Shown: piece by piece, positions 470 through 54,599 of the stretch
Position numbering within the stretch: position 1 is the stretch's first letter
Layout: each line of letters opens with the position of its first letter
Source of the DNA: Flavobacteriales bacterium
GTDB taxonomy: Bacteria > Bacteroidota > Bacteroidia > Flavobacteriales_F > PHOS-HE28
Length of the DNA stretch: 64,000 nt
Reading direction: 5' to 3'
NCBI GenBank assembly: GCA_019638085.1
Contig: JAHBUL010000003.1
Coordinates: forward strand, 62,001-126,000
Notes under the pieces: generated by a model
Told to the model about the DNA's origin: nothing
What the model saw: the letters and a program-made list of their open reading frames with translations, nothing else
Database searches by the model: none
Position numbers and translations under genes: made by a program

Positions 470-1705
470 TTATCGCCCGAACTTCGTGATGTCCATCTGC
501 TTCAAAATCGCAATCAATACATCAACAACAATACTGTTGCCCGCTTGACGATACATCTGTGTGTCACTAACATCGATTTTGAAGGTGTCCCTGAATCCCA
601 TAAGTCGTAGGCACTCGCGTGGGGTGAGTTTCCGAATGCGACCATATCGATGAGTTACGTAATTATCTACTCCTGCGCGGTGCATCTTATGCATCGATTG
701 CAACAATGGTCGAGCTACAGCAAGATCTGTTTCTGTGCTTGTCTTGAAGTTCTTAGTGCCACCGGCGAGCACATATTTGCTGACCTTAGGCGAGAGGTAG
801 TACTTCTCCTCCACTTCAGATACGTCAAAAACGAATTCGTCGAAGTCCGTTTTGAGCTCTCGATCATCGAACACAAAGTCACCATGCCAGTTGAATTGCT
901 GATTCGCTTTTTGACAAAGGGCAACAGCGCCATTGATTTGGGTATAGCGCTTAAGTCTATTCTTCGTGCTAGTGACGAACTTGATTCCCTTCTCCCGCAG
1001 GTAGTACTTCGATTCAGTATAGTCCTCGAGGAAGTCCTGCATCGTCCTTTCCAACTCCACTGGTTGTGGAAAGTTGAATGAAACGTCATGGTCAAGAAAG
1101 CCGACCACGAAAATTCGCTCGCGATGTTGCGGAATACCGTAATCCTTACTGTTGAGCAAGTCGAAATGAATTTTATAGCCAAGGTCGTGGAATACATCCT
1201 TTACAACCTGCCATGTCCGACCTCCATCATGGTTAGTCAGGCCTCGAACGTTCTCATAAATAAAAACCTTGGGTTTTGATTCGTTGACGAGCCGTGCAAA
1301 CTCATAAAACAATGTGCCCCGAGTGTCCTCTAAGCCAAGCCGCTTGCCAACCATGGAAAATGCTTGGCAAGGACTTCCGCCGACCAGGAGGTCAATTTTT
1401 TGGTTGAATTTCTTAGCGGATAGGTCGTGAATATCTGAGTGCCAATGCCTATGCCCTATCTCATAGTTGGCAAAATAGCTCTGCTTGACAAATTTGTCGA
1501 TGTCGCCTGCAAATAGAATCTCGTGATTCAAATTGAGCCTTTGAAAGGCATGCTCAATAGCTCCTATTCCGCTGAAAGAAGTGCCAACATTAATTGTGGC
1601 TTTCGGGTTTTCGAACGTACTCGTTCTCCAATCATCTATTCCGTGAAACAAGGAACTACCGTCTTCTACAGTAGTTACGCCGATTGTTGAATCGCGATAG
1701 GTCAT
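470..1705 (-). CDS. DNA (cytosine-5) methyltransferase
   Basis: It transfers a methyl group from S-adenosylmethionine to C5 of cytosine in a specific DNA site. C5-methyltransferase motifs appear in order: motif I GTSFSGIGAIEHAF, motif IV GGSPCQAFS with the catalytic Cys, motif VI ENVRG, motif VIII QHRERIF, and near the C-terminus motif X RQAGNSIVVDV. The variable part between motifs VIII and X is the target-recognition region. An in-frame ATG at 1771 would add 22 residues that do not resemble the family, so I chose the ATG at 1705 (MTYRDS); even this leaves a leader before motif I. The next gene, cut by the edge, starts 10 nt downstream. Probably the modification half of a type II R-M system; the recognition site cannot be read from sequence. 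Confidence 0.93.
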   Translation of the reverse strand: MTYRDSTIGVTTVEDGSSLFHGIDDWRTSTFENPKATINVGTSFSGIGAIEHAFQRLNLNHEILFAGDIDKFVKQSYFANYEIGHRHWHSDIHDLSAKKFNQKIDLLVGGSPCQAFSMVGKRLGLEDTRGTLFYEFARLVNESKPKVFIYENVRGLTNHDGGRTWQVVKDVFHDLGYKIHFDLLNSKDYGIPQHRERIFVVGFLDHDVSFNFPQPVELERTMQDFLEDYTESKYYLREKGIKFVTSTKNRLKRYTQINGAVALCQKANQQFNWHGDFVFDDRELKTDFDEFVFDVSEVEEKYYLSPKVSKYVLAGGTKNFKTSTETDLAVARPLLQSMHKMHRAGVDNYVTHRYGRIRKLTPRECLRLMGFRDTFKIDVSDTQMYRQAGNSIVVDVLIAILKQMDITKFGR

Positions 1706-1818
1706 GTGCGGCTGAGTTCTTGGAATGGATGACCTGAGTGGTCGTTGCGAACATAGAACCATAGGGGGCATCTGCCGATACTCTGTCGCTTCATTTTGTA
1801 CACATCATTGTGGTCGTA

Positions 1819-2214
1819 TCACCTAGGAATAAGGATGCGCTTCAGAAGTCCGTGTTGGAGTGCCTCATAGCAGTAAAGCTCATCATCCTCCAGTAGGCCA
1901 TCTTCATAGCGTGCCCATGCTTCGTCCGCAAGCGGAGCAAGCACCACCGGCCAACCACTCTGTACATAGAACGGTGCGATCAAACGAGGCTCGATCAAGC
2001 GGAAGCGATCCGGGCCTTCAGCCTTCATGCTGATCTCGGTGCCATGGTCAGTGGCTTCGTCGGGATGGAGCCCTCCATAGAGGTAGCCGATTGAAAACCA
2101 TGCCTTGAGGAAATCTTCGTGGGACATGTCACTTAGTGGGCTGTCCAGCGCAGGAATGAGCCATTGAAGTGCTTGCCGTTCATTGCTGGGGATGCAGGAG
2201 TCGGAGGTTCTCAT
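1819..2214 (-). CDS. Hypothetical protein, 131 aa
   Basis: A 131-residue acidic soluble protein (MRTSDSCIPSNERQALQWLI) without signal peptide or membrane segment. It has many aromatic residues and ends with ALQHGLLKRILIPR. I do not recognise the family. It lies upstream of the methyltransferase on the same strand, separated by about 110 nt, and its base composition is closer to the host average than that of the methyltransferase. It may be unrelated to the R-M genes. Confidence 0.6.
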   Translation of the reverse strand: MRTSDSCIPSNERQALQWLIPALDSPLSDMSHEDFLKAWFSIGYLYGGLHPDEATDHGTEISMKAEGPDRFRLIEPRLIAPFYVQSGWPVVLAPLADEAWARYEDGLLEDDELYCYEALQHGLLKRILIPR

Positions 2215-2289
2215 GGTTGACGGAATTTATGTCAGTTGGCGGATGACATATTAGTCGATCGCATTGTGACTTCCAAGTGTTGTTGATAA

Positions 2290-2553
2290 ATCAACATCGC
2301 CCTCAACGCCCTCCACGACAAAGCCTTCGATCGCGGCCTGGTCACCTTCGATCCCGATCTCCGCATGGTTTGCGGCAAGCATCTTCGGAAACGGTTCCGT
2401 GAAGAAGAGATAGCTCGGAATTTCAAGGCCTTTGAAGGCAAAGCCTTGCGGGTACCTGCGGAGTCGGACGGCCCCGGCGAAGAGTACTTGGCATGGCATC
2501 GTGTCATGATCTTCGAGGAAGGTACACGGGATGAGATGGGCACGTGTGATTGA
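2290..2553 (+). pseudogene. C-terminal remnant of an HNH restriction-type endonuclease
   Basis: The frame from 2290 to the TGA at 2551-2553 reads NIALNALHDKAFDRGLVTFD, then a basic stretch and FKAFEGKALRVPAE, ending near LAWHRVMIFEEG. This is the usual C-terminal part of HNH nucleases of the type NGIALNALHDKAFDRGL. In-frame stops at 2284-2289 remove everything upstream, including the first His of the HNH motif, so it cannot be a full gene. It faces the intact HNH gene at 2562-3506 tail to tail and differs from it in sequence, so it is a relic of a different nuclease, not a duplication of that gene. Confidence 0.75.
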
Positions 2554-2561
2554 CCGCTACA

Positions 2562-3506
2562 TCAATTGAACCCGGACCGTTCCCGATGCATCGCCAAGTT
2601 CTTCAACGCCGGATGGTGTAGTGTGTGATCCGGCAGGATCAACCGCTTCCCGGCAAAGGGCCGGATGGCATAAGGCGTATCCGCTTCCCGAAGTTCGTTG
2701 GACACGATCACGGTATAGTCCGCTGCGATGCTGATGAGGCCTCGATCGAATGCGCGGTGCATATTGGGGCAAAGTGCGATGCCGTTGGTGATCGTGTCGT
2801 CATAGGAATCGGCCCATGGAACGATGTGGCAAGCATCGATCAAGCTTGCCCGTTTGTTGTGCTGGATATGCAGGCCCGTGATGGCGCAGCGGTAGCCGTA
2901 TAGTTCAGGGATCTTGCGCTTGAAGGCGGCACCGCGCAGCACTTGTTCTTCCTCCTCCTCTTCCTGCAGGTGTTGGAGTTGGCGTGCCACATAGGCTTCC
3001 GGTGTATCGTGCTCGATCTGGCGTTCGATCTCGCGGAGGTGGTCCGGCAACGCGTTGGGAACGGCTTGGCCGGTGAAGTATTTCGCTACAAGGATGAGCT
3101 GATCGGCAGCGCGATGCGCCCGATCTTGCCAGCGGTCGAAAACATCCGCGCGCAATTCCGCATAGGCATCGAAGGCGATGAGCGCGCTGAGGCTCTTGAT
3201 GGAATTGGAGCGGGTAAGTCCGTGCTCGAAGCCCGGCAACGTATGCAGTTTCCACAGGCCCGAGTGCTCGTTCTTCAAGTGGTAGAAGGGAAGGAAGAAG
3301 CGTCGTTGATAGGGGCTGTCCTTCACCAACGCCGCCCAGTAGCCATTGAAGAGGTTGATCAGTTCAGCGGAAGGGGTGATCCGGTTCTCGGTGATCAGCC
3401 CTTCATCGATGGCCTTGAGCACGGCCAGCAAGAGCACGGGCTTATGGGGCGCACGACCATTGGCCCGCTTCAACCGCAGGTAGTCGGGCAGTAGCGGACC
3501 TGGCAT
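2562..3506 (-). CDS. HNH endonuclease with possible N-terminal sulfur-binding domain (type IV restriction-like)
   Basis: A 314-residue protein starting MPGPLLPDYLRLKRANG. The upstream part of the open frame (to 3602) is low-complexity and probably untranslated. The N-terminal 130 residues contain APHKPVLLLAVLKAI, which resembles the phosphorothioate (sulfur)-binding domain of ScoMcrA-type restriction enzymes. A Glu-rich linker (LQEEEEEEQ) follows. The C-terminal HNH nuclease contains CAITGL, DACHIVPWADS and NGIALCPNMHRAFDRGL. By family knowledge such fusions cut DNA carrying phosphorothioate or other modifications, which would make this a modification-dependent defence gene. The HNH call is firm; the sulfur-binding call is by pattern only. 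Confidence 0.85.
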   Translation of the reverse strand: MPGPLLPDYLRLKRANGRAPHKPVLLLAVLKAIDEGLITENRITPSAELINLFNGYWAALVKDSPYQRRFFLPFYHLKNEHSGLWKLHTLPGFEHGLTRSNSIKSLSALIAFDAYAELRADVFDRWQDRAHRAADQLILVAKYFTGQAVPNALPDHLREIERQIEHDTPEAYVARQLQHLQEEEEEEQVLRGAAFKRKIPELYGYRCAITGLHIQHNKRASLIDACHIVPWADSYDDTITNGIALCPNMHRAFDRGLISIAADYTVIVSNELREADTPYAIRPFAGKRLILPDHTLHHPALKNLAMHRERSGFN

Positions 3507-4549: not shown

Positions 4550-4745
4550 CTGCTCGCGTTGAGCTGCGGGGCAGCCTTGTCTTCAGCGTCCAAGGCCCTT
4601 GTTGGCGTGGTTTTTCGGCTTTCGGCTCAATTTAAGTCCTTGATTATCTGCGAGATAGTTGTTATCTCGGCTAAATGGCCGATATCCATCGCCGGGGAAG
4701 GGTCGTTTCAATCCCCAAAACCAGGCGTGCCACGCCACAAACTAC

Positions 4746-6703: not shown

Positions 6704-6839
6704 CCGCGCCCGGCAGGAAGGTGGTTTCCCTGATCCGGTGCCCGGCGTTCCTTGGTCTTCCATCCGTGCGCTCCCGATCGGCATCGGAGCGTGGTTCCTC
6801 TTTCTGCCCCTTGCTGCCTCCTGCTTCTACCTTCGCGCC

Positions 6840-8123
6840 ATGAGCAACTACGTCTCCGCCGAGCAGGCCGTTTCCTTGGTGAAGAGCGGGCAGCGCGTGT
6901 TCGTGCATGGCAGCGCCGCCACGCCGCTGGTATTGATGAACGCCCTTTTTGCGCGGGCCATAGAGCTGGAGCGGGTGGAGTTGGTGAGCATCAGCACTAT
7001 CGGGGACCTCGATCTGCAGCAGCCGGAAGTGCAGCGCGCCTTCTTCATGAACAGCCTGTTCGTGAGCGACAATGTGCGCACGGCGGTGAACGGGCCGCAT
7101 GGCGATTACGTGCCGGTGTTCCTCAGCGAGATCCCCCGCTTGTTCGATCAGCACGTGCTGCCGCTGGATGTGGCGCTGCTGCATGTGTCGCCGCCGGATG
7201 CGCACGGCTTCTGCTCGCTGGGCGTGAGCGTGGATGTGGCCCGCGCGGCGGCGCGCACCGCCAAGGTGCTCATCGCCCAAGTGAACCCGCGGATGCCGCG
7301 CACCCACGGCGAGGGCATGGTACACAGCAGCCGCTTCGCCGCGATGGTGGAGGTGGACGAGGCCCTGCCGGAAGTGGATTACGCCAGCGCCATCGGCCCG
7401 GCGGAAACCCGCATCGGGGCGCTGTGTTCCGAGCTGATCGAGGACGGCAGCACGCTGCAGATGGGCATCGGCGCCATCCCCGATGCGATCCTGCGCGGAC
7501 TGAAGGACCACAAGGACCTGGGCGTACACACGGAGATGCTCAGCGATGGGCTGCTGCCACTGCTACTGGCGGGCGTGATCACCGGCCGCTTCAAGCGGAA
7601 GTACCCCGGGCGGGTGGTCACCAGCTTTGCATTGGGAACGAAGGCCCTTTACGACCACCTCGATGACAATCCGATCTTCACCTTCCTGGACACGGCCTAC
7701 GTGAACAGCGGCCATGTGATCAAGCAGAATCCCAAGGTTGTGGCCATCAACAGCGCCATCGCGGTGGACCTCACGGGGCAGGTCTGCGCGGACAGCATCG
7801 GAACCAAGCAATACTCGGGCGTGGGCGGGCAGATGGATTTCATGCGCGGGGCGGCGCTCAGCGAAGGGGGCAAGCCCATCATCGCCATGGCCTCCACCAC
7901 GCGCAAGGGCATCAGCAAGATCGTGCCCTTCCTCGCGGAAGGTTCCGGCGTGGTGACCACCCGCGCCCATGTACACCACGTGGCCACCGAGCACGGCATC
8001 GTGAACCTCTACGGCAAGAGCCTGCGCCAGCGCGCGGAGCTGCTCACCAGCATCGCCCACCCGGACCACCGCGAGGCGCTGGACCGCGCCACCTCGGATC
8101 GCTTCGGGCCGAAGTACCGGTGA
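6840..8123 (+). CDS. Acetyl-CoA hydrolase/transferase family protein (4-hydroxybutyrate CoA-transferase-like)
   Basis: A 427-residue enzyme starting MSNYVSAEQAVSLVKSGQRV. It moves CoA between a CoA thioester and a short carboxylic acid such as acetate, butyrate or 4-hydroxybutyrate. Family features: VFVHGSAATP near the N-terminus, LQMGIGAIPDAIL, the catalytic Glu in LGVHTEMLSDG, and the C-terminal QYSGVGGQMDF and STTRKGISKIVPF. An open frame from 6738 would add a hydrophobic leader, but the enzyme is cytoplasmic and 6840 matches the family length. It is monocistronic here. Substrate is inferred from the family only. Confidence 0.92.
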   Translation: MSNYVSAEQAVSLVKSGQRVFVHGSAATPLVLMNALFARAIELERVELVSISTIGDLDLQQPEVQRAFFMNSLFVSDNVRTAVNGPHGDYVPVFLSEIPRLFDQHVLPLDVALLHVSPPDAHGFCSLGVSVDVARAAARTAKVLIAQVNPRMPRTHGEGMVHSSRFAAMVEVDEALPEVDYASAIGPAETRIGALCSELIEDGSTLQMGIGAIPDAILRGLKDHKDLGVHTEMLSDGLLPLLLAGVITGRFKRKYPGRVVTSFALGTKALYDHLDDNPIFTFLDTAYVNSGHVIKQNPKVVAINSAIAVDLTGQVCADSIGTKQYSGVGGQMDFMRGAALSEGGKPIIAMASTTRKGISKIVPFLAEGSGVVTTRAHVHHVATEHGIVNLYGKSLRQRAELLTSIAHPDHREALDRATSDRFGPKYR

Positions 8124-23381: not shown

Positions 23382-24797
23382 TCAATCTTCCGCCGGACTT
23401 CCGTCACCGCACATGCGCACCACTTTGGGCGTGAAGGTGCCCATCACCTCCACCAGGTCGCGTTGGCTGTTCATCACGGTGTGAATGTCCTTGTAGGCCA
23501 TGGGCGCTTCATCCAGCCCGGCACCGATCAGGTCCACATCATGTTTCTTCAACATCTGCTTCACTTCCTTGGAAGTGATGGTGGCCTTGGCCCGGGTGCG
23601 GCTCATGGTACGTCCTGCGCCGTGGCTGGCACTGGCGATGCTTTCGGCCTTGCCGGTACCACGTACGATGAAGCCGGGTGCCGTCATGCTGCCGGGGATC
23701 ACGCCAAGCACGCCTTTGCCCGCGGGCGTGGCGCCCTTGCGGTGTACGATCAGTTCGCGGCCACCATGCATTTCCTTCCAGGCGAAATTGTGATGATTCT
23801 CCACCGTGGCCACGGGCCGTTCGCCCAAGGCCTTGAAGATGCGTGCATGGATCTGCTGGTGGTTGGCCGAGGCGTAGTCGCCCGCCAGTTGCATCGCCGC
23901 CCAGTATTCCTGTCCCTCGGCGCTGTCCAGTGAGAGCCATGCGAGGTTCTGCGCTTCCGCCGGCAGCTTGCACAATTCCTTGGCCAGGCGCGTGTAGTGC
24001 TGAGCGATGTTCGCACCCAGCCCACGCGATCCGCTGTGCGAAAGCAGCCCCACATATTCACCCACGGGCAGGCCGAATTCGTTGTGTACATCCGTGATCG
24101 CGACCACACCGAATTCCACGAAGTGGTTACCGCTGCCGCTGGACCCGATCTGCTGCCATGCGCGATCCTTCAGTTGTTTCACGATCGGGATGGTGTCGAA
24201 CTCCGCGCGCTCCAGCACGGGGTGGTCCATCCGCACCTCATGCACAGCGCGCCCGAAGCGGGTGTGCTCGAGGAGCAGACGTTTATGGTCGGCACGGTAT
24301 TGCTCCAACTTTTCGGGTGCCATGTTGAAGATGCTGAGGCTCATGCGGCAACCGATGTCCATGCCGACGCCGTAGGGGATCACTGCATTTTCAGTGGCCA
24401 GCACGCCACCAATGGGCAGCCCGTAGCCTTGGTGTGCATCGGGCATCAGCGCACCGGCCACGGTAATGGGCAGCTTCATGGCGGTCTCCATCTGCTGGAT
24501 GGCACCCTGCTCGATATGTTCCGCTCCGTAAATGCGATGCTCTTTCCGGGGAAGCAGCTCGTGCTGGTCCGCGGTCTTGCGGTCCGCGCCGGTCAACGCA
24601 TGCGCGATGGGTGCGTAGTGTTCGTGCTCACTGAATGAGTCGGGTTCCGCCAAGATCTGCTTGAGCACATCGAGCGCGTCCTCCTTCTTCATCCCGCGGT
24701 GATGCTTCACCATCACATTGATCGCAATACCGATCGCGCGGCTTTCGTGGAAGCCGATGGCGATGAGGTCCTTGCCGTGGAGTTTGAGGCGTTTCAT
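23382..24797 (-). CDS. rtcB: RNA-splicing ligase RtcB
   Basis: A 471-residue enzyme starting MKRLKLHGKDLIAIGFHESR. RtcB joins RNA ends bearing 2',3'-cyclic phosphate or 3'-phosphate to a 5'-OH, using GTP and Mn. Metal- and GTP-site motifs are in place: GVGMDIGCRMS with the Cys ligand, GSSGSGNHFVEFG, LLSHSGSRGLGANIA, and ASASHGAGRTMSRTRA with the His that takes GMP. The frame is open from 24917, but that leader spans a tRNA-like gene, so the ATG at 24797 is the start. It lies downstream of four tRNA-like genes and a slipin gene on the same strand. No archease gene is seen in the window. Confidence 0.96.
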   Translation of the reverse strand: MKRLKLHGKDLIAIGFHESRAIGIAINVMVKHHRGMKKEDALDVLKQILAEPDSFSEHEHYAPIAHALTGADRKTADQHELLPRKEHRIYGAEHIEQGAIQQMETAMKLPITVAGALMPDAHQGYGLPIGGVLATENAVIPYGVGMDIGCRMSLSIFNMAPEKLEQYRADHKRLLLEHTRFGRAVHEVRMDHPVLERAEFDTIPIVKQLKDRAWQQIGSSGSGNHFVEFGVVAITDVHNEFGLPVGEYVGLLSHSGSRGLGANIAQHYTRLAKELCKLPAEAQNLAWLSLDSAEGQEYWAAMQLAGDYASANHQQIHARIFKALGERPVATVENHHNFAWKEMHGGRELIVHRKGATPAGKGVLGVIPGSMTAPGFIVRGTGKAESIASASHGAGRTMSRTRAKATITSKEVKQMLKKHDVDLIGAGLDEAPMAYKDIHTVMNSQRDLVEVMGTFTPKVVRMCGDGSPAED

Positions 24798-24921: not shown

Positions 24922-24924
24922 GTG

Positions 24925-24995
24925 TGGAAGAGGATGGGATCGAACCATCACCTGCGGTGTTTCAGACCGCCGCTCTACCCTTGAGCTGCTCTTCC
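24925..24995 (-). tRNA. tRNA-Phe(GAA)-like
   Basis: A 71-nt unit. Acceptor GGAAGAG/CTCTTCC fully paired, D arm GCTC/GAGC with loop AAGGGTA, anticodon stem GCGGT/ACCGC with loop CTGAAAC (GAA), 4-nt variable loop AGGT, T arm GATGG/CCATC with loop TTCGATC. Position 8 is C, not the near-universal T. CCA is not encoded. All stems are perfect, so the structure is conserved even though a tertiary-contact base is changed. Confidence 0.85.
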
Positions 24996-25040
24996 TTCGG
25001 TCGCCATAGTCCGCCGATAGGGGGACGACGGCGGCCTTCG

Positions 25041-25112
25041 TTGGCCCGGCGGGACTCGAACCCGCACCCCTCGGTTAAGAGCCGAGTAGTCTTCCATACG
25101 ACCTCCAAGCCA
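25041..25112 (-). tRNA. tRNA-Lys(CUU)-like
   Basis: A 72-nt unit. Acceptor TGGCTTG/CGGGCCA (two G-T pairs), D arm GGTC/GACT, anticodon stem CTCGG/CCGAG with loop CTCTTAA (CUU), 4-nt variable loop, T arm GCGGG/CCCGC with loop TTCGAGT. Position 8 is G and position 14 is G, whereas T8 and A14 are near universal. The unit starts with T1. The downstream spacer (about 25013-25036) carries a CCGCCG/CGGCGG hairpin. Confidence 0.8.
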
Positions 25113-25190
25113 GTGTTTATCATTCGCATTCATCAGCGCTTCATCATCATGATCCGCGTCATCAGCGTTCCATTTTCTTATCGCACTTTG

Positions 25191-25262
25191 ACCATCAGGA
25201 AGGATTCGAACCTTCATCCTCCACCTTCGCACGGCGGTGCTCATCCATTGAGCTACTGATGG
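25191..25262 (-). tRNA. tRNA-Arg(GCG)-like
   Basis: A 72-nt unit. Acceptor CCATCAG/CTGATGG fully paired, T8 and A14 normal, D arm GCTC/GAGC, anticodon stem CCGCC/GGTGG with one wobble and loop GTGCGAA, so anticodon GCG (codon CGC), 5-nt variable loop, T arm GAAGG/CCTTC with loop TTCGAAT. A GCG-reading tRNA-Arg is uncommon in bacteria, which usually read CGC with inosine-modified ACG. Position 32 is G. The unit begins with C1. Confidence 0.8.
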
Positions 25263-25328: not shown

Positions 25329-26438
25329 TCAAGGAGCCTTGCCCGGAGAGAAGATCTCCTTCAATTGGTCAAGGACCTTGGCGTTACCACTGATGGAAAG
25401 CGTGTTCACCTTTTCGGCGATCTTCTCCACGTACTCCATTTCCTTCAACTTGAAGAGCATGGTGTTCTCCTCCATCAGCTTCGCGGTGTTCAGCAAGCTG
25501 CGCGTGCTCGCCGTTTCCTCGCGCCGCATGATGGTGTTGGCTTCCGCCTTCTTCTGCGCCACCAGCACCTGGTTCATGATCTCCTTCATGTCACCGGGCA
25601 GGATGATGTCCTTGATACCACCCGCATTGATGGCGATGCCCAGGGCTTCGGCCTGCGCGCTCACGCTCTCCTTCACGTAGGCCGTTACCGCGTCCTTGTC
25701 CGCGAGCACCTCATCCAGCAGGCGCGTGCCGATGAATTCACGCAGGGCCAATTGCACCAGAACATAGAGCTGCTTTTCGTTCTCCTTGTTCTCCAACAGC
25801 GCCTTGCGGATGTCGGTGATGCGGTACTGCAACGTGAAGTTCACACGCAGCGCGGCCTTGTCCTTGGTGAGGATCTCCTGACCGTTCACTTCCAGCTGGA
25901 GCTGGCGCGTGTCGGCCTTGAGCACCTGGATCACGATGCTGTTCTTCGCGAAGAAGTACGTACCGGGATCGAGCATGCGTTGCGCCTCACCGTTCACCAG
26001 GAGGATGCCCTTTTCGTAAGGCTCCACGTTGTATGCACGGATGTAGGGCAGCAGCGCCGGCTTCATCAGCAGGTCGGGGTCCACGTTGGCGGGGATCTCG
26101 GCTTGCGCCAGGTCCACCTCCATGAAGGCGTACTTCACCAAACCCTTGAAGAAGGCGTAGCGGCCGGGCTTCAGCACTTCCTGGAAGTTACCGTTGCGGT
26201 ACATCAGGACGATGCGGTTGTCCGGCACTTCCACCACGGTGAGCCGTGCGGCGAGTTCGGCGTCCTGCAACAGGATGTCGAGTTCCACCGGCGGGGTGAA
26301 GGGCAGCGCGAGGTTGTACACGCGCACGGTGTCGAAGGGGGCGAGCACATGCAGGCCCGGCTTCAGTACGCGGGTGTAGTTGCCGAAGCGGAAGACCAGG
26401 CCGACCTTGCCTTCGGTGATGCGTTGGATGTTGAACAT
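25329..26438 (-). CDS. Slipin / SPFH (band 7) family protein
   Basis: A 369-residue protein starting MFNIQRITEGKVGLVFRFGN. Two N-terminal beta-rich stretches (KVGLVFRFGNYTRVLKPGLH and NRIVLMYRNGNFQEVLKPGR) precede an SPFH domain: GQEILTKDKAALRVNFTLQY, KQLYVLVQLALREFIGTRLL and IKDIILPGDMKEIMNQVLVAQ. A C-terminal coiled coil follows (RREETASTRSLLNTAKLMEE). No transmembrane helix is obvious, as in this subgroup. The frame is open to 26585, but family alignment fixes the start. It lies between the permuted tRNA-like units and the linear tRNA-like units on the rtcB strand, which suggests a shared function. I infer an RNA-repair context; SPFH proteins form ring assemblies elsewhere. Confidence 0.9.
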   Translation of the reverse strand: MFNIQRITEGKVGLVFRFGNYTRVLKPGLHVLAPFDTVRVYNLALPFTPPVELDILLQDAELAARLTVVEVPDNRIVLMYRNGNFQEVLKPGRYAFFKGLVKYAFMEVDLAQAEIPANVDPDLLMKPALLPYIRAYNVEPYEKGILLVNGEAQRMLDPGTYFFAKNSIVIQVLKADTRQLQLEVNGQEILTKDKAALRVNFTLQYRITDIRKALLENKENEKQLYVLVQLALREFIGTRLLDEVLADKDAVTAYVKESVSAQAEALGIAINAGGIKDIILPGDMKEIMNQVLVAQKKAEANTIMRREETASTRSLLNTAKLMEENTMLFKLKEMEYVEKIAEKVNTLSISGNAKVLDQLKEIFSPGKAP

Positions 26439-26857
26439 GGTACGTTGTTGTGTTGGCCTTCGCAAAGCAGTACCGCGCCATGCGTTGGGAATGGGATGCC
26501 CGTTGACCGGTGGGCACCTTGCCGGGTTATCGTGAGAGCGAAAAGTGCTCGTGTGTTGAGTAAGAAAGCGATGAGGAAACGCCACCTGCGTTCAGCGGGG
26601 ACATCGATGCCATGCGCGGGCTTCCGCGGTTCCGCTCACCGTTGCACATCATCGTGACGACCTTTAAAAGTCGCCATCCAAATGCACTTGGGCGACGGGA
26701 ACCTTGGTGCCGTTGATGAGCAGCGCGAGGTTCACAGGATGAACACGGGTCGTCCGTTGCGTTCGCCGTAACGTGGCTTGCGCGCGGGACCGGTGGATCC
26801 ATCATCGCTTTCAGCGAATGGGCATTTTTAGGGAAGCGCCCGGCTTCCTTCCTCTGT
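26439..26857. other. Leader region of the slipin gene, no gene recognised
   Basis: About 420 nt between the slipin start and the tRNA-like units. The open frame on the minus strand at 26527-26805 has no recognisable content. Immediately 3' of the tRNA-like units on the minus strand, CTCTGTCACAGAG (26853-26865) and GGAAGC-CGGGC-GCTTCC (about 26833-26849) form hairpins; the second is followed by CTAAAAA and could act as a weak attenuator. Confidence 0.5.
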
Positions 26858-26935
26858 GACAGAGTCCATTGCTCTACCGATTGAGCTAACCTGACCTTGC
26901 GGTCAAGGACGGGATTCGAACCCGCGACACATGGA
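26858..26935 (-). ncRNA. Second permuted tRNA-like unit (3' half before 5' half)
   Basis: Read on the minus strand: TCCAT (anticodon stem, 3' strand), variable GTGTC, T arm GCGGG/CCCGT with loop TTCGAAT, acceptor 3' strand CCTTGAC, linker CGCAAG, acceptor 5' strand GTCAGGT, TA, D arm GCTC/GAGC with loop AATCGGTA, A26, then ATGGA (anticodon stem, 5' strand). ATGGA pairs perfectly with TCCAT. The acceptor has five Watson-Crick pairs, one wobble and one mismatch; an extra C-G pair brings the linker to a GCAA loop. The next 7 nt, CTCTGTC, could be the loop (C32, T33) but have T37, so the anticodon is uncertain. It shares one base with the unit at 26935-27009. Confidence 0.65.
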
Positions 26936-27009
26936 TCGGTGCTCTTGCCAACTGAGCTATCCGCCTTAAGGCGGAGCAGGGATCGAACCTGCGACTTCCG
27001 ATGTGGGAG
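26935..27009 (-). tRNA. Circularly permuted tRNA-Gly(CCC)
   Basis: Read on the minus strand: loop CTCCCAC, stem ATCGG, variable AAGTC, T arm GCAGG/CCTGC with loop TTCGATC, acceptor 3' strand TCCGCCT, linker TA, acceptor 5' strand AGGCGGA, T8 A9, D arm GCTC/GAGC with loop AGTTGGCAA, A26, stem CCGAT. Rejoining end to start gives a full tRNA: acceptor 7/7 pairs, anticodon stem CCGAT/ATCGG 5/5, T stem 5/5, D stem 4/4, C32 T33 CCC A37 C38, C48, G18G19. Every position is present once. Read linearly there is no anticodon loop and no acceptor pairing. Maturation would need joining at the 31/32 position (a job for RtcB) and removal of the acceptor linker. Confidence 0.8.
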
Positions 27010-27112
27010 GAACAGAACGACCGTTCGGCGGCATACAGCGTGCGAAACGCAGCGGTACCATGGGGCCTTGTGAAACCCGCATCAGGTCCGACGCGACCGG
27101 CCTTTCCTCGTG

Positions 27113-27238
27113 CTTGTCCGCCGTACGGAGGACAAGATGTTTTGTGCTGAAAGCACAGTATGTAAAAGAACGTTCATCGTTCAGGGGGTCTCCGCGGTCC
27201 TGCTCCCGCCGGACTTCCTTCCGAATGCGGAGACCCCC
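27113..27238 (-). ncRNA. Candidate structured RNA: four consecutive hairpins
   Basis: In minus-strand order: 27238-27184, a 12-bp perfect stem GGGGGTCTCCGC/GCGGAGACCCCC enclosing GTCC/GGAC; 27182-27168, GAACG-ATGAA-CGTTC; 27157-27143, TGTGC-TTTCA-GCACA; 27136-27113, CTTGTCC/GGACAAG with inner CCG/CGG. No open frame explains this density of dyads. It lies upstream of the permuted tRNA-like units and may be a leader or separate small RNA. Strand is assumed from the neighbours. Confidence 0.5.
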
Positions 27239-31622: not shown

Positions 31623-31943
31623 GGTGTTCCGGTGTGTTTTGTGTGGTGAAGGTATGCGTTTTGGATAACGGGAACCTTGCTGTTCGCATCGGTATCGGGA
31701 GTTCAATTGTACCGGTTCTTTCAGTCCGTTCCCTGATCCATGTTGGACAGCCGATGAGTCGATCCATCGGGGATCGGTGGCTGCCGGAGCACGGTGATTT
31801 TCCGGCTCGATGAGACATGTCGACCGGGATGGTTCCACAGGTTGAAATGTCGGGAATCGGGGCAAGGATCCACCTCCAACCCTACCTTTTGGCCGATGTT
31901 GAAGCGGGAGCCATTGATCAAGTGGCATTGGCGGAGGTGGCTC

Positions 31944-33776
31944 ATGACCTTACGCATCGTGCTGTTCCCGGCGCTTTTGTTCACTGCGGGAACGATCCAA
32001 GCAGCCAGATCGGAAGGGTCTGCTGATCTGCTGCGCATCATGAGGGTTGTGGACAGCCTGAAACAGCTTGGGCATCTATCCGAGGTTTCCGTCCTTTTGG
32101 ATTCGGCCGAAGTGATGGCGCGTTACCATGGCGATGCGACGGTCCTGGGACGAGTGATGTTAGAGAAGGCCGCCTTGTTGGAAACGAGGGGTGAGAGCGG
32201 TCGGGCATTGTCCATGCTTTACGAAGCCATGCAGGAGGTGCAGCGGTCAGGTGATAGCCTGAGCATGGCCGAAGTGCTCAACAGCATTGGGACCATTCAA
32301 CACAACCAAAAGAACTTTGATAAGGCCGAGGCATACTACAACCGTAGCGGAGCGATCTACCAGCGATTGGGGTTGAAACAGAAGACAGGGAAATATTGGA
32401 ATAACATGGGTTCCCTGTACGAGGACATGGGCGACCCGGCGCACGCACTTTCCTTTCACCGGCGCTCTCTTGGGATATGGCAGGAACTGGGCAACACCGG
32501 TTGGGCGGCCGTCAGTTACATGCACATGGGGACCTGTTACGGTCTCTTGGGCAAGACGGATTCGGCAAAATACTTCCTGGAGCAGAGCATGCACGATCAG
32601 GATGCCGACAGCAAGGGGTATCTGATGGCCATAACGAAAGTGAACTACGGCGTGAACGAGAACCGGGCAGGACGGCAGCACGTCGCCTTACGGTATTGCA
32701 AAGAAGGTCTTGCCATCGCCATGAATTTGCAAGCACGGTTATTGGAAAGTGAGGCCTGTGATTGCCTGTACAAGACCTACGATGCCATGGGCGACAAAGG
32801 CCTTGCATTGGAGTACTATCGCCGTGCCGTGGAACTACGGGACGCTCTTTTCGGGGAAGCGAAGGTGAAGAACATGACCCGTATCGAAATGGATCATGAT
32901 TTCGAGCAGAAACAACTTGCTGACAGCCTCACACGTGCGAAGCGCCAGGTGGAAGAAGAAATGCTCCATCAGGCGGAAGTGGCCAAGGAACGGGAGGGGC
33001 GGAACATTGCGCTCTTCACCAGCTTTGCCGTGCTCTTGCTTGCAGGGGCACTGTGGAGCCGCCTGCGTTTCATGCGCTTGTCAAAAGGAAGGATACAGCG
33101 TGAGCGAGAGCGCTCGGAACGATTGCTTCTGAATATCCTGCCAACATCGGTTGCTCAGGAATTGAAGGACAACGGCAAGGCATTGGCCCGTGAGTATGCC
33201 GGAGCAACCATACTCTTCTCCGATTTCAAGGATTTCACACGGATCAGCCTATCGATGAATGCCCAGGCCTTAGTGGAAGAGCTGGACCATTGCTTCAAGG
33301 CCTTTGATCGGATCATGGTCGCACACGACATCGAAAAGATCAAGACCATAGGTGACGCATATATGTGCGTTGGCGGCCTACCGGACCTGGCACCGGCCAC
33401 TCCTGCGAATGTGGTGCATGCAGCGCTGGAAATGCAGGAGTTCGTGGCGCAGCGCAAGGCCCAGCGCGAGGCCAAGGGGCTGGTCGCCTTTACGATGCGC
33501 GTGGGCATTCACACCGGCCCCGTGGTGGCCGGTGTAGTGGGATTGAAAAAATTCGCATTCGACATCTGGGGCGATGCCGTGAACACCGCCAATGCCATGG
33601 AAAGAGCTGGAGAAGCAGGGAAGGTGAACATCAGCGAGGCGACTTATCTTTTGGTAAGGAACGAGCCGGGCCTCGCGTTTACGGGCCGTGGCAAAGTGGA
33701 AGCGAAAAGCAAAGGGGTGATGGAGATGTACTTCGTGAGCCACGCCAGCGTGTCACCGAGCGCCTCGACCGCATAG
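31944..33776 (+). CDS. TPR-domain adenylate cyclase, class III (cyclase 1)
   Basis: A 610-residue protein starting MTLRIVLFPALLFTAGTIQA (signal or anchor). About 5 TPR-like repeats (35-330) such as AEVLNSIGTIQHNQKNFDKA precede a coiled coil, a membrane helix (NIALFTSFAVLLLAGALW) and a class III cyclase domain (about 440-600). Metal Asp residues lie in LFSDFKDFT and GDAYM; the KTIGD Lys and the DIWGD Asp predict ATP as substrate. The segment after Asn is NTANAMERAG where the family has NTASRMES, so the transition-state Arg is Ala. A TACCTTTTG patch at 31883-31891 supports a start after the earlier GTG at 31794. Confidence 0.9.
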   Translation: MTLRIVLFPALLFTAGTIQAARSEGSADLLRIMRVVDSLKQLGHLSEVSVLLDSAEVMARYHGDATVLGRVMLEKAALLETRGESGRALSMLYEAMQEVQRSGDSLSMAEVLNSIGTIQHNQKNFDKAEAYYNRSGAIYQRLGLKQKTGKYWNNMGSLYEDMGDPAHALSFHRRSLGIWQELGNTGWAAVSYMHMGTCYGLLGKTDSAKYFLEQSMHDQDADSKGYLMAITKVNYGVNENRAGRQHVALRYCKEGLAIAMNLQARLLESEACDCLYKTYDAMGDKGLALEYYRRAVELRDALFGEAKVKNMTRIEMDHDFEQKQLADSLTRAKRQVEEEMLHQAEVAKEREGRNIALFTSFAVLLLAGALWSRLRFMRLSKGRIQRERERSERLLLNILPTSVAQELKDNGKALAREYAGATILFSDFKDFTRISLSMNAQALVEELDHCFKAFDRIMVAHDIEKIKTIGDAYMCVGGLPDLAPATPANVVHAALEMQEFVAQRKAQREAKGLVAFTMRVGIHTGPVVAGVVGLKKFAFDIWGDAVNTANAMERAGEAGKVNISEATYLLVRNEPGLAFTGRGKVEAKSKGVMEMYFVSHASVSPSASTA

Positions 33777-33995
33777 GGTGGTACTTTCCACTTCCGGTAC
33801 AGGCGTTTTTTACGGGTGAGCAACCTGCCATTCGGCCGTTCGCACAAGAGGCCCCCATGTGGTAGGAGCGAACAGGCCTGGATCTGCGACCCATTTCAAC
33901 GCTTCTGGTTCTTCGCTGTATTTTTGAGTTCACAAGGGTCCGGCAAGGTGCTGCCGCGACGATGAACTTTCAGAACTCAGGGCAATGGGTGGAGC

Positions 33996-36092
33996 ATGAT
34001 CAAAAGGGGTGCCAACGGACTGTGGCTTTTCTTGGCGCTTGCGGCAGGAAGGCTTCCGCCCACGATGGCATCGCCGGATACGCTTGCTCCAGCAACAGCC
34101 GTGATCATGCCGGAGCACGGATTCCGGTCCGGAGGGCGAGCCCCACCACTGATCATTACCGCAGAAAGACTTCGGAACGGCCGGTTCGTTGCGCGCAACC
34201 TCGTGTTTCCCGTTCCGGGACTCGATCTCGTAAGGGCCGCACACCCGCGATACATCCGTGAGGACCGGGCGGAATTCGCCGCACGCGATTTCGACGATAC
34301 TGCTTGGCCCGTAATGGATAGTACCGCAGATATCGGCTTTGAACGCGGTAAGGTCCATTGGGTCAGGTTCGATCTGATCCTTCCAAAGGAAGATCCAGGT
34401 GACACCTTGGACGATGGCCTGGAACTCAGCCTCTTCTCACAAGGTGCGATGGAGATCTACCTGAACGGGAAGGCCGTGGACCATTTCGGCACGTTACCCC
34501 CTGTAGGGCAGGAGCGGACTTATCACCCTGCGCCGTTTGTTCCGCGCCGCACAGTGCGCCTGCATTTCGCACGGGACGGACTCCCGGAGACCATTGCGCT
34601 GCGCTACCTCTACGAGCCGGTCAAGGATCGGGACACCGGCATTGTGGAACCCTTGAAGGTGGCCGTGCAGCTCCCCGCTGAAACCCGACGGATGGAACGG
34701 GTCGAGAGTGCCACCTTGCTTCAGTATGGTGTATTCCTGGGCATCAATTTGATCATCATGTTGTTGGCCCTGGTGATCCTTGCCCTCAGGCCGCGGGATG
34801 CAAGCTGGCGTCGGATGTCCTTCTTTTCGTTCTTCATGGTGCTGGTGGCCTTCACGAACACCGCGCCCAAGGTCTCGGCGAATTTCTCGCTGGCCCTGAT
34901 GGAATGGATGAAGTACCTGAACTTCATTGCGTACCCGTTCGCCCTTCTTTTCCTCGTGCTGGTGATCCGCTCCTTGTTCACCAAGGTTACTTGGCGCGGC
35001 ATGTTGTTCTTTGCCGTGATCACCTTGGTCCTGGTGGGCTCCGGCTTCCTCACGTACCACTTTCCCGGCATGGACGGACGTTACGATGGCTGGCTGATGC
35101 TCGTTTTCTTCTTCGAGGTAGCGGTTCAATCCATTCGTGCCGTGCGTGCCAAGGTCCGAGGGGCCTGGATAGTCGGCATCGGCGCGGTCCTGTTCATTTT
35201 CAATGGGGTCCTCTTGGAGCAACTCTATCAGTTCCTCGGCTTGGTGATGCCGCAGGAACTCCGCACATATATGCGCTTCTCGTTATACCTCACCATGCCG
35301 ATCACCATCACGGTGTACCTCTCCGTTCGTTCGGTGCTCAACGCACGCATGCTCGGCCGACAACGTGATGACCTGGATGTGGAGGTGATGGATCGAACAG
35401 CAGACCTGCACTTCGAAAAGGAACGCTCCGAAGCCTTGTTGCACAACATCCTACCGGAAGCAGTGGCGCAGGAACTGAAATCAACCGGCACTGCCCATGC
35501 GGAACTCCTTGAGCAGGTCACTGTCCTGTTCACCGATTTCAAGGATTTTACCGAGATCAGTAAACAGCTCGGACCGAAGGAACTGGTCCATGCCATTCAT
35601 GAATATTTCAGCGCCTTCGACGGGATCACGGGGAAGTACGGTATCGAGAAGATCAAGACCATCGGCGATGCTTACATGGCGGCGGGTGGACTGCCGCTAC
35701 CGAATACCACGCACGCGCAGGATGTGGTCCGTGCGGCGTTCGAGATGCGTGACTATGTGGCCGCAGGCAAGGCGCGGAAGATGGCTGCCGGGCTACCCTA
35801 CTTCGAGGTCCGCATCGGTATCCACAGCGGTCCGGTGGTGGCAGGCATCGTGGGCGTGAAGAAATTCCAGTACGATATCTGGGGTGACACCGTGAACACG
35901 GCCAGCCGCATGGAAAGCAGCGGTGAAGTAGGGCTGGTGAACATCAGCAGTACCACCTATGCCATTCTGAAAGATGTAAAGGAGGTAAAGGATGGCAACG
36001 AGGTGCCCGCATTCACCTTCACTCCGCGCGGCATGGTGGAGGCGAAGGGAAAGGAGGAACTGGAGATGTACTTCGTGAACAACGGTGGTTAA
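33996..36092 (+). CDS. 7TMR-DISM adenylate cyclase, class III (cyclase 2)
   Basis: A 698-residue protein starting MIKRGANGLWLFLALAAGRL. An N-terminal periplasmic beta-rich domain (about 40-235; MEIYLNGKAVDHFGTLPPV is typical of the DISM extracellular type) is followed by seven membrane helices (240-460), a coiled coil, and a cyclase domain (505-690). Metal Asp residues: LFTDFKDFT and GDAYMAAGG. KTIGD Lys and DIWGD Asp predict adenylate specificity. The transition-state pair is intact (NTASRMESSG). It would sense a periplasmic signal and make cAMP inside. It stands alone between cyclases 1 and 3. Confidence 0.93.
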   Translation: MIKRGANGLWLFLALAAGRLPPTMASPDTLAPATAVIMPEHGFRSGGRAPPLIITAERLRNGRFVARNLVFPVPGLDLVRAAHPRYIREDRAEFAARDFDDTAWPVMDSTADIGFERGKVHWVRFDLILPKEDPGDTLDDGLELSLFSQGAMEIYLNGKAVDHFGTLPPVGQERTYHPAPFVPRRTVRLHFARDGLPETIALRYLYEPVKDRDTGIVEPLKVAVQLPAETRRMERVESATLLQYGVFLGINLIIMLLALVILALRPRDASWRRMSFFSFFMVLVAFTNTAPKVSANFSLALMEWMKYLNFIAYPFALLFLVLVIRSLFTKVTWRGMLFFAVITLVLVGSGFLTYHFPGMDGRYDGWLMLVFFFEVAVQSIRAVRAKVRGAWIVGIGAVLFIFNGVLLEQLYQFLGLVMPQELRTYMRFSLYLTMPITITVYLSVRSVLNARMLGRQRDDLDVEVMDRTADLHFEKERSEALLHNILPEAVAQELKSTGTAHAELLEQVTVLFTDFKDFTEISKQLGPKELVHAIHEYFSAFDGITGKYGIEKIKTIGDAYMAAGGLPLPNTTHAQDVVRAAFEMRDYVAAGKARKMAAGLPYFEVRIGIHSGPVVAGIVGVKKFQYDIWGDTVNTASRMESSGEVGLVNISSTTYAILKDVKEVKDGNEVPAFTFTPRGMVEAKGKEELEMYFVNNGG

Positions 36093-54062: not shown

Positions 54063-54599
54063 TCAGGAGTTGAAGACGGCCCATGCGGCCACTATGCCAG
54101 CACACACTGACACGTTCAGGCTATGCTTGGTCCCCCCTTGCGGCACCACGATCGCGCCGTCACACTCTGCCACTACTTCATCGCTTACACCGTGCAGTTC
54201 ATTACCCAATACCAAGGCCAGTCCCTTCTTTCGCTCGGGCTTCCAATCGGTGAGGGGGATCGCATGCATGGTTTGTTCCACAGCCCATACCTCCCATCCC
54301 TCGGCCTTAAGCTTGCGCACGGCATCCAGCGCTCTTTCATGGTGCACCCATGGTACCGATAGGGTGGCACCCAAGGCGGTCTTCTCGATCTCCCGATGCG
54401 GAGGAAGCGGGGTGAAGCCGCAGAGGTCCAGCCCTTCCATGGCGAAGGCATCCGCAGTGCGGAAAATGGAACCGGTGTTATGGCGGCTGCGCACATCATC
54501 CAGCACGAAACGCAGCCGGGGCTTGGACATGGCCTTGTATTCAGCGGGGCCCACACGGCCCAATTCGTCCATGGTGAGCTTGCGGTCCTGTGGTGGCAT
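54063..54599 (-). CDS. SpoU/TrmH-family RNA 2'-O-methyltransferase
   Basis: A 178-residue SPOUT methyltransferase starting MPPQDRKLTMDELGRVGPAE. The knot motifs are present: LDDVRSRHNTGSIFRTADAF (motif 1), LALVLGNELHGVSDEVVAE (motif 2) and VVPQGGTKHSLNVSVCAGIV (motif 3). It methylates ribose 2'-OH in tRNA or rRNA; the exact target cannot be told. The frame is open to 54755 over the mutS promoter, and the start at 54599 matches the family. Confidence 0.93.
   Translation of the reverse strand: MPPQDRKLTMDELGRVGPAEYKAMSKPRLRFVLDDVRSRHNTGSIFRTADAFAMEGLDLCGFTPLPPHREIEKTALGATLSVPWVHHERALDAVRKLKAEGWEVWAVEQTMHAIPLTDWKPERKKGLALVLGNELHGVSDEVVAECDGAIVVPQGGTKHSLNVSVCAGIVAAWAVFNS

Follow-up and report, generated by a model that had tools for sequence, protein, structure and literature searches.

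A structured RNA with two tandem tRNA-like modules upstream of slipin genes in Bacteroidota

Introduction

A stretch of 64,000 nucleotides (nt) from a Flavobacteriales bacterium (assembly GCA_019638085.1, contig JAHBUL010000003.1, positions 62,001 to 126,000 of the forward strand; hereafter the window, numbered from its first letter) contains, at 27009-26935 on the minus strand, a unit in which the 3' half of a transfer RNA (tRNA) precedes its 5' half, raising the question of whether this is a tRNA gene in permuted order or part of a different kind of RNA. An earlier note had described the unit as a complete, circularly permuted tRNA-Gly(CCC) gene beside rtcB, the product of which would be made through a circular intermediate. 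Comparative analysis revealed that 27009-26935 is not a tRNA gene. Judged from its sequence, the whole element is predicted to be a structured noncoding RNA of ~300 nt, consisting of a 5' domain (~27157-27004) and two tandem tRNA-like modules as its 3' half.

The two tRNA-like modules

Regarding the permuted unit, sequence, strand and coordinates were as described in the earlier note; on the minus strand it reads CTCCCAC ATCGG AAGTC GCAGG TTCGATC CCTGC TCCGCCT TA AGGCGGA TA GCTC AGTTGGCAA GAGC A CCGAT. The permuted topology, with all parts of a tRNA-Gly(CCC) and a full set of tRNA-like contacts, was supported, and doubling of the 75-nt unit, the check proposed in the note, yielded a single tRNA-Gly(ccc) in ARAGORN; as it stands, the unit was called neither by ARAGORN nor by an Rfam search of the window at gathering threshold. 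The permuted unit is real, but its description as complete in itself missed a partner module on the 3' side, the 5' domain and the closed acceptor hairpin resembling that of the Y RNA YrlA.

The second module (26935-26865, minus strand; TCCAT GTGTC GCGGG TTCGAAT CCCGT CCTTGACC GCAA GGTCAGG TTA GCTC AATCGGTA GAGC A ATGGA) lies directly 3' of the first and is built to the same design; no tRNA was called by ARAGORN when it was doubled. In both modules the acceptor strands are adjacent and form a closed hairpin, with the loop UUAA in module 1 and GCAA in module 2; this short loop closes the acceptor and leaves no free CCA end, so that a module in its transcribed form cannot be an ordinary charged tRNA. 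The minimum-free-energy (MFE) fold of 27002-26864 consists of exactly both modules back to back (-52.8 kcal/mol, z -2.55), each with a T arm, the closed acceptor hairpin, a D arm and a closing anticodon-stem helix. The MFE structures of longer stretches (211 nt and 471 nt) differ from this two-module fold, which is preferred over them because the comparative evidence decides.

This evidence comprises 100 T-arm-to-D-arm junctions from related loci, collected with T-arm and D-arm anchors and with no requirement for acceptor pairing. At least six of the seven acceptor pairs were in register in 80 of the 100 junctions, compared with 0-5 when the partners were slid by 1-3 nt, and many pair types were present at every position of the acceptor stem; the anticodon-stem helix was complete in 28 junctions (0-5 when slid). 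In an alignment of 18 sequences, the module structure was 90% paired (38-49% when slid) and the covariation was 0.593, against 0.09-0.17 when slid and with 0/500 in shuffles; relatedness among the sequences calls for caution with covariation, and the slid control retains this relatedness. The arrangement is far beyond chance. Drift in the stems without compensating changes had been named in the earlier note as a refuting sign, and the homologues were found to keep the closing anticodon stem by compensating changes.

The only informative Rfam match was YrlA (RF02553), with 42.9 bits on module 1 (model positions 23-86 of 114) and 33.0 bits on module 2 (23-88 of 114), both below the gathering score of 69 bits, as were the YrlA scores of the relatives. 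In the window, this match is confined to the tRNA-like domain of YrlA, and model positions 1-22 and 89-114, the Ro-binding basal stem, remained unaligned. Over the RNA as a whole there was no gathering-level match in Rfam 15; that level was reached only by ordinary tRNA models, on the last modules of some relatives or on nearby tRNAs.

The 5' domain and its connection to the modules

An iterated profile search, the weakest members of which are marginal, showed the ~125 nt preceding module 1 to be conserved in 87 of the close to 100 regions searched. Three hairpins of this domain covary strongly, namely a CUUCC/GGAAG stem, a core GAUGAGgGUUUC..GCcCCAUAG and a stem ending in UAUGCUGC; they are 95% paired (38-51% when slid), with a covariation of 0.507 (0.11-0.14 when slid). 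The 5' domain had no match in Rfam. The stretch after the first covarying hairpin pairs with the foot of module 1 in a long-range helix, which scored 6.03 within the own locus compared with 5.36 +/- 0.12 between loci (0/300). This helix joins the 5' domain to the modules, and both halves are therefore regarded as one RNA.

Of 85 loci, 32 have the motif GTTCnTT[GA][AC] in the 75 nt preceding the 5' domain; no match was obtained at the control positions, 300 nt further upstream or on the reverse strand. The copy in the window is one T longer than this pattern, and GTTCTTTGA, the same motif, occurs four times in the ribosomal RNA (rRNA) operon region of this genome. The motif is a candidate boxA-type antitermination signal, which would fit an untranslated, structured transcript. 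The palindrome TGTGCTTTCAGCACA, considered as the operator of a regulator, was rejected; its sole exact copy in the genome is here, and in relatives it corresponds to a variable hairpin stem. At 27184-27238 (minus strand) there is a strong hairpin, GGGGGTCTCCGC...GCGGAGACCCCC; close relatives have tRNA-Met or tRNA-Leu at this site, immediately before the RNA, and the hairpin may represent a decayed or replaced tRNA.

Homologues and distribution

When 58 relatives were searched by BLAST with the RNA, most matches were ordinary tRNAs; the true homologues were only two further members of the genus, with 77-79% identity, in which stems are altered and mostly still paired. Within the genus the distribution is patchy, the RNA being present in 9 of 45 genomes. 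Organisms in culture that carry it include Chitinophaga arvensicola, Roseivirga and Aquimarina. The wider set of 80 loci, fetched with the downstream slipin protein as query, spans numerous families of Bacteroidota; one record is titled Chlorobiota. A scripted scan of the 1200 nt preceding slipin detected one or more acceptor-closed modules in 66 of these loci, with a single match, overlapping the same site, in the reverse-strand control; three of the 14 loci without a module had less than 350 nt of upstream DNA, and some far-upstream matches were ordinary tandem tRNAs.

R1, a covariance model restricted to the two tRNA modules and built from 18 sequences, scored at least 84 bits in 57 of the 80 slipin loci, a count that includes the 18 model sequences by construction, and 124 bits in the window. 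On whole genomes R1 also matches ordinary tandem tRNAs (up to ~76 bits) and Gly-Gly arrays (up to 93 bits; G465, G453 and G343), and matches below ~95 bits were counted only after a check of their flanks. With ordinary Gly tRNA arrays excluded, 15 new loci were recovered by R1 without slipin information. R2, a covariance model confined to the 5' domain and containing no tRNA part, was run on the same 395 genomes of the phylum as R1; its match abuts the R1 match in 9 of 11 other genomes, and at least 12 of the 395 genomes are R2-positive, a lower bound given that few first-look candidates were scored. No copy was found in viral contigs searched with two exact patterns, in the plasmids searched, or in the phages searched beyond one 60-nt tRNA-like match. 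The latter, unannotated, lies at 54366-54421 of the jumbo phage Vibrio phage BONAISHI (MH595538.1).

Genomic neighbourhood

The features of the window locus are given in Table 1; the rtcB neighbourhood reported in the earlier note is among them.

Table 1. Predicted elements of the RNA and neighbouring genes in the window
Feature	Position	Strand	Evidence or remark
Putative boxA-like motif, GTTCTTTTA	27163..27171	-	rRNA-type antitermination-like signal
5' domain hairpin H1, TGTGCT TTC AGCACA	27143..27157	-	Identical in 3 genus members; other complementary stems in distant loci (by eye)
5' domain hairpin H2, CUUGUCC...GGACAAG	27113..27136	-	Covarying helix 1 of the 5'-domain alignment
Long-range helix, 5' strand GAGGAA	27104..27109	-	Partner strand 27012-27007
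5' domain hairpin H3, GAUGcGGGUUU...GCCCCAUGG	27060..27083	-	Most conserved core; 8 pairs, 97% paired, both-side changes in 7
5' domain hairpin H4, ending UAUGC(C/U)GC	27032..27058	-	8 pairs, 94% paired, both-side changes in 7
Long-range helix, 3' strand UUCCUC, foot of module 1	27007..27012	-	Own-locus versus cross-locus pairing test
tRNA-like module 1 (AUCGG/CCGAU anticodon-stem helix, T arm, UUAA-closed acceptor hairpin, D arm)	26935..27002	-	Permuted tRNA of the earlier note; YrlA match, fold, covariation
tRNA-like module 2 (UCCAU/AUGGA, T arm, acceptor hairpin with GNRA loop GCAA, D arm)	26865..26935	-	YrlA match, fold, covariation
Terminal hairpin CUCUG UCA CAGAG	26852..26864	-	Sequence; position of the last-module anticodon arm in relatives
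Slipin (SPFH/Band 7)	25329..26438	-	PF01145, E 1e-31
Three tRNA genes, Arg(gcg), Lys(ctt), Phe(gaa), between slipin and rtcB	24924..25262	-	tRNA calls
RtcB RNA ligase	23382..24797	-	PF01139, E 1.3e-86

Across Bacteroidota, homologues of the RNA are located 270-650 nt upstream of slipin genes on the same strand, and in all 15 loci found by R1 alone the slipin start is 270-535 nt downstream, likewise on the same strand; the strong model hits included no copy independent of slipin. Between the RNA and slipin, sequence conservation is limited to close relatives (9 loci). In 51 of the 80 slipin loci, a gene for RtcB follows within 3.5 kb in the same orientation. Ordinary tRNA genes, frequently in large numbers, are found upstream of the RNA or, as in this window, between slipin and rtcB. 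In the window these tRNAs have a stress-array-like appearance, Phe(gaa) being a second, divergent copy and Arg(gcg) having an unusual anticodon, and at two loci (L117 and L118) 14-16 tRNA genes (16 in L117) are arrayed before the RNA and slipin, resembling the trn operon of Anabaena.

Regarding Ro60, no TROVE gene was detected in this genome, nor in 37 of 42 tested genomes with the locus. TROVE is present in the other five of the 42 genomes, and in loci L044 and L062 a WYL regulator and Ro60/TROVE are encoded in the same locus as the RNA, slipin and RtcB. An extra tRNA-like module was observed upstream of the main array in L044 (~7061-7241), L091 (~4574-4639) and L062 (~6826-6891); in L044 and L062, where TROVE and slipin flank it, this module is a candidate for the Y RNA bound by Ro60. 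In L062 a protein resembling, by eye, an HD-domain/polynucleotide kinase is encoded at 1604-2707 (plus strand), upstream of WYL, TROVE, the RNA, slipin and RtcB, giving an extended RNA-repair island. A PADLOC search of slipin, RtcB and the neighbouring gene returned no known defence system. Elsewhere in the window, two adjoining genes at 31794-36092 (plus strand) appear by eye to be membrane-linked and nucleotide cyclase-like.

Proposed function and alternative explanations

The RNA is best interpreted, with rather more confidence than doubt, as a co-transcribed double tRNA mimic that acts in trans as a platform or decoy for tRNA-recognising enzymes in a locus for tRNA damage or translation stress. 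It would be transcribed together with slipin, often RtcB and extra tRNA genes, with the boxA-like signal keeping the polymerase moving through the structured stretch. Like YrlA, it would then work in trans as a tRNA-shaped platform or decoy and may hold RtcB, anticodon nucleases, RNase P, modification enzymes or PNPase close to a slipin assembly during the ligation or replacement of damaged tRNAs under translation stress. In such a division of labour during tRNA damage, RtcB would repair, the extra tRNAs would replace and slipin would organise. By analogy, the RNA may be a Ro-independent relative in kind of YrlA. The earlier note had offered mimicry of an anticodon-cleaved tRNA as its alternative, and the mimicry part of that suggestion comes close to this explanation.

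A true permuted tRNA-Gly(CCC) gene, the product of which would arise by cleavage, ligation by RtcB and trimming, would account for the presence of every tRNA position, for the tRNA-Gly obtained from the doubled unit and for the nearby RtcB, but is very unlikely. Among homologues, the anticodon-stem helix that carries module 1 has no conserved anticodon loop, while the last module often has a real anticodon arm: the 7 nt at the anticodon-loop position have U33 and a purine at 37 in 7 of 27 open modules compared with 33 of 37 terminal arms, and at the terminal-hairpin position a genuine anticodon loop of 7 nt is present in 37-38 related modules, almost all of which have U33 and purine 37. In the genus member L002 the corresponding 7 nt are CCTCCAC, lacking U33. 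Because open modules rarely keep U33 and purine 37, the Gly(CCC) anticodon of module 1 is probably fortuitous. Acceptor loops in the homologues are mostly 2-6 nt and leave no room for the usual 3' end, a normal linear tRNA-Gly(CCC) is present elsewhere in the genome, and RtcB is not near many of the homologous loci; the circular intermediate was not upheld. Debris of tandem tRNA genes, with a permuted look by accident, might be suggested by the adjoining tRNA arrays and by the resemblance of single modules to different tRNAs, but its probability is negligible, and it is already refuted because the adjacent acceptor strands covary; the layout is also kept across many Bacteroidota families.

The main rival is a cis-acting leader, in which the slipin-(rtcB) mRNA would carry the modules in its 5' untranslated region as sensors of enzymes that process or cleave tRNA, and expression of the downstream genes would be switched when such an enzyme binds or cuts. 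Two points weigh against a trans-acting RNA: the fixed place just upstream of slipin, constant even at loci found without slipin and with no slipin-independent copy among the strong hits, suits such a leader equally, and RtcB need not be a partner because it was not seen near many arrays, including the stretches fetched for the 15 loci found by R1 alone. Since slipin stands at all of these 15 loci and RtcB was seen at none, slipin is the fixed partner and RtcB a frequent one. The leader is nevertheless judged somewhat unlikely, as the distance to slipin varies (~270 to 650 nt), the spacer is conserved only among near relatives, and both the boxA-like signal and the location of Salmonella YrlA in an operon suit a noncoding RNA. 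A canonical Y RNA with a Ro60 partner that is here lost or too divergent to see is a distinctly improbable explanation; the modules are of the YrlA type and TROVE occurs in the same locus in L044 and L062, but it is absent from this genome and most of the tested genomes with the locus, the Rfam match covers the tRNA-like domain without the Ro-binding stem, and the 5' domain has no Rfam match.

Extending the trans-acting interpretation, it may tentatively be suggested that the RNA is part of a phylum-wide RNA machine, in which the double tRNA mimic and 5' domain partner a slipin membrane assembly and recruit RtcB or other tRNA enzymes as the core of a Ro60-free response to tRNA damage. The trans-acting interpretation would extend tRNA mimicry past Ro60-bound Y RNAs and transfer-messenger RNA (tmRNA) to an RNA that is conserved and widespread within a single phylum, and would link RtcB, slipin and extra tRNA arrays, all known to respond jointly to translation stress, through a single RNA. 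It would also offer a handle on two questions, the purpose of the tRNA-like part of Y RNAs and the reason why slipin genes travel with RNA repair.

Comparison with known systems

The module itself is of a known kind, while neither Rfam 15 nor the searched literature contains its tandem arrangement, the 5' domain, the link to slipin or the lack of dependence on Ro60; an earlier mention in work on Y RNAs is possible, and the RNA is apparently undescribed. As in tmRNA, a tRNA mimic is found inside a longer RNA, but there was no tmRNA match near the gathering score and no mRNA-like tag frame was identified. With the permuted tRNA genes of algae and archaea (review, PMC3978253; archaeal cases, PMC3218864) it shares the order of the 3' half before the 5' half; in contrast to these, the acceptor is closed by a loop of mostly 2-6 nt, module 1 lacks a conserved anticodon loop, a normal tRNA exists in the genome, and the modules are in tandem with their own 5' domain.

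YrlA is the closest likeness: it too has a T arm, a D arm and an acceptor stem capped by a short loop, hung on a stem at the anticodon position (PMC8394870), and the likeness extends to the RtcB operon context of Salmonella YrlA (PMC7790460). YrlA receives dihydrouridine and pseudouridine from tRNA enzymes, tethers Ro60 to PNPase and is encoded in RtcB operons (PMC8394870, PMC7790460), and in Salmonella the operon is induced by tRNA fragments (PMC7790460). The RNA described here differs from YrlA in its two tandem modules, sub-gathering matches, unaligned Ro-binding stem, genome without TROVE, 5' domain without Rfam match and linkage to slipin.

Regarding the neighbouring genes, TrcR of Anabaena jointly represses rtcB, a slipin gene and an array of 26 tRNAs, the latter induced by translation-targeting antibiotics, and no such tRNA-mimic RNA was found in the sections consulted of that account (PMC10272220). 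The same three kinds of genes are scattered and co-regulated under one translation-stress repressor in Anabaena (PMC10272220), whereas in the locus described here they stand side by side, with the tRNA-mimic RNA among them.
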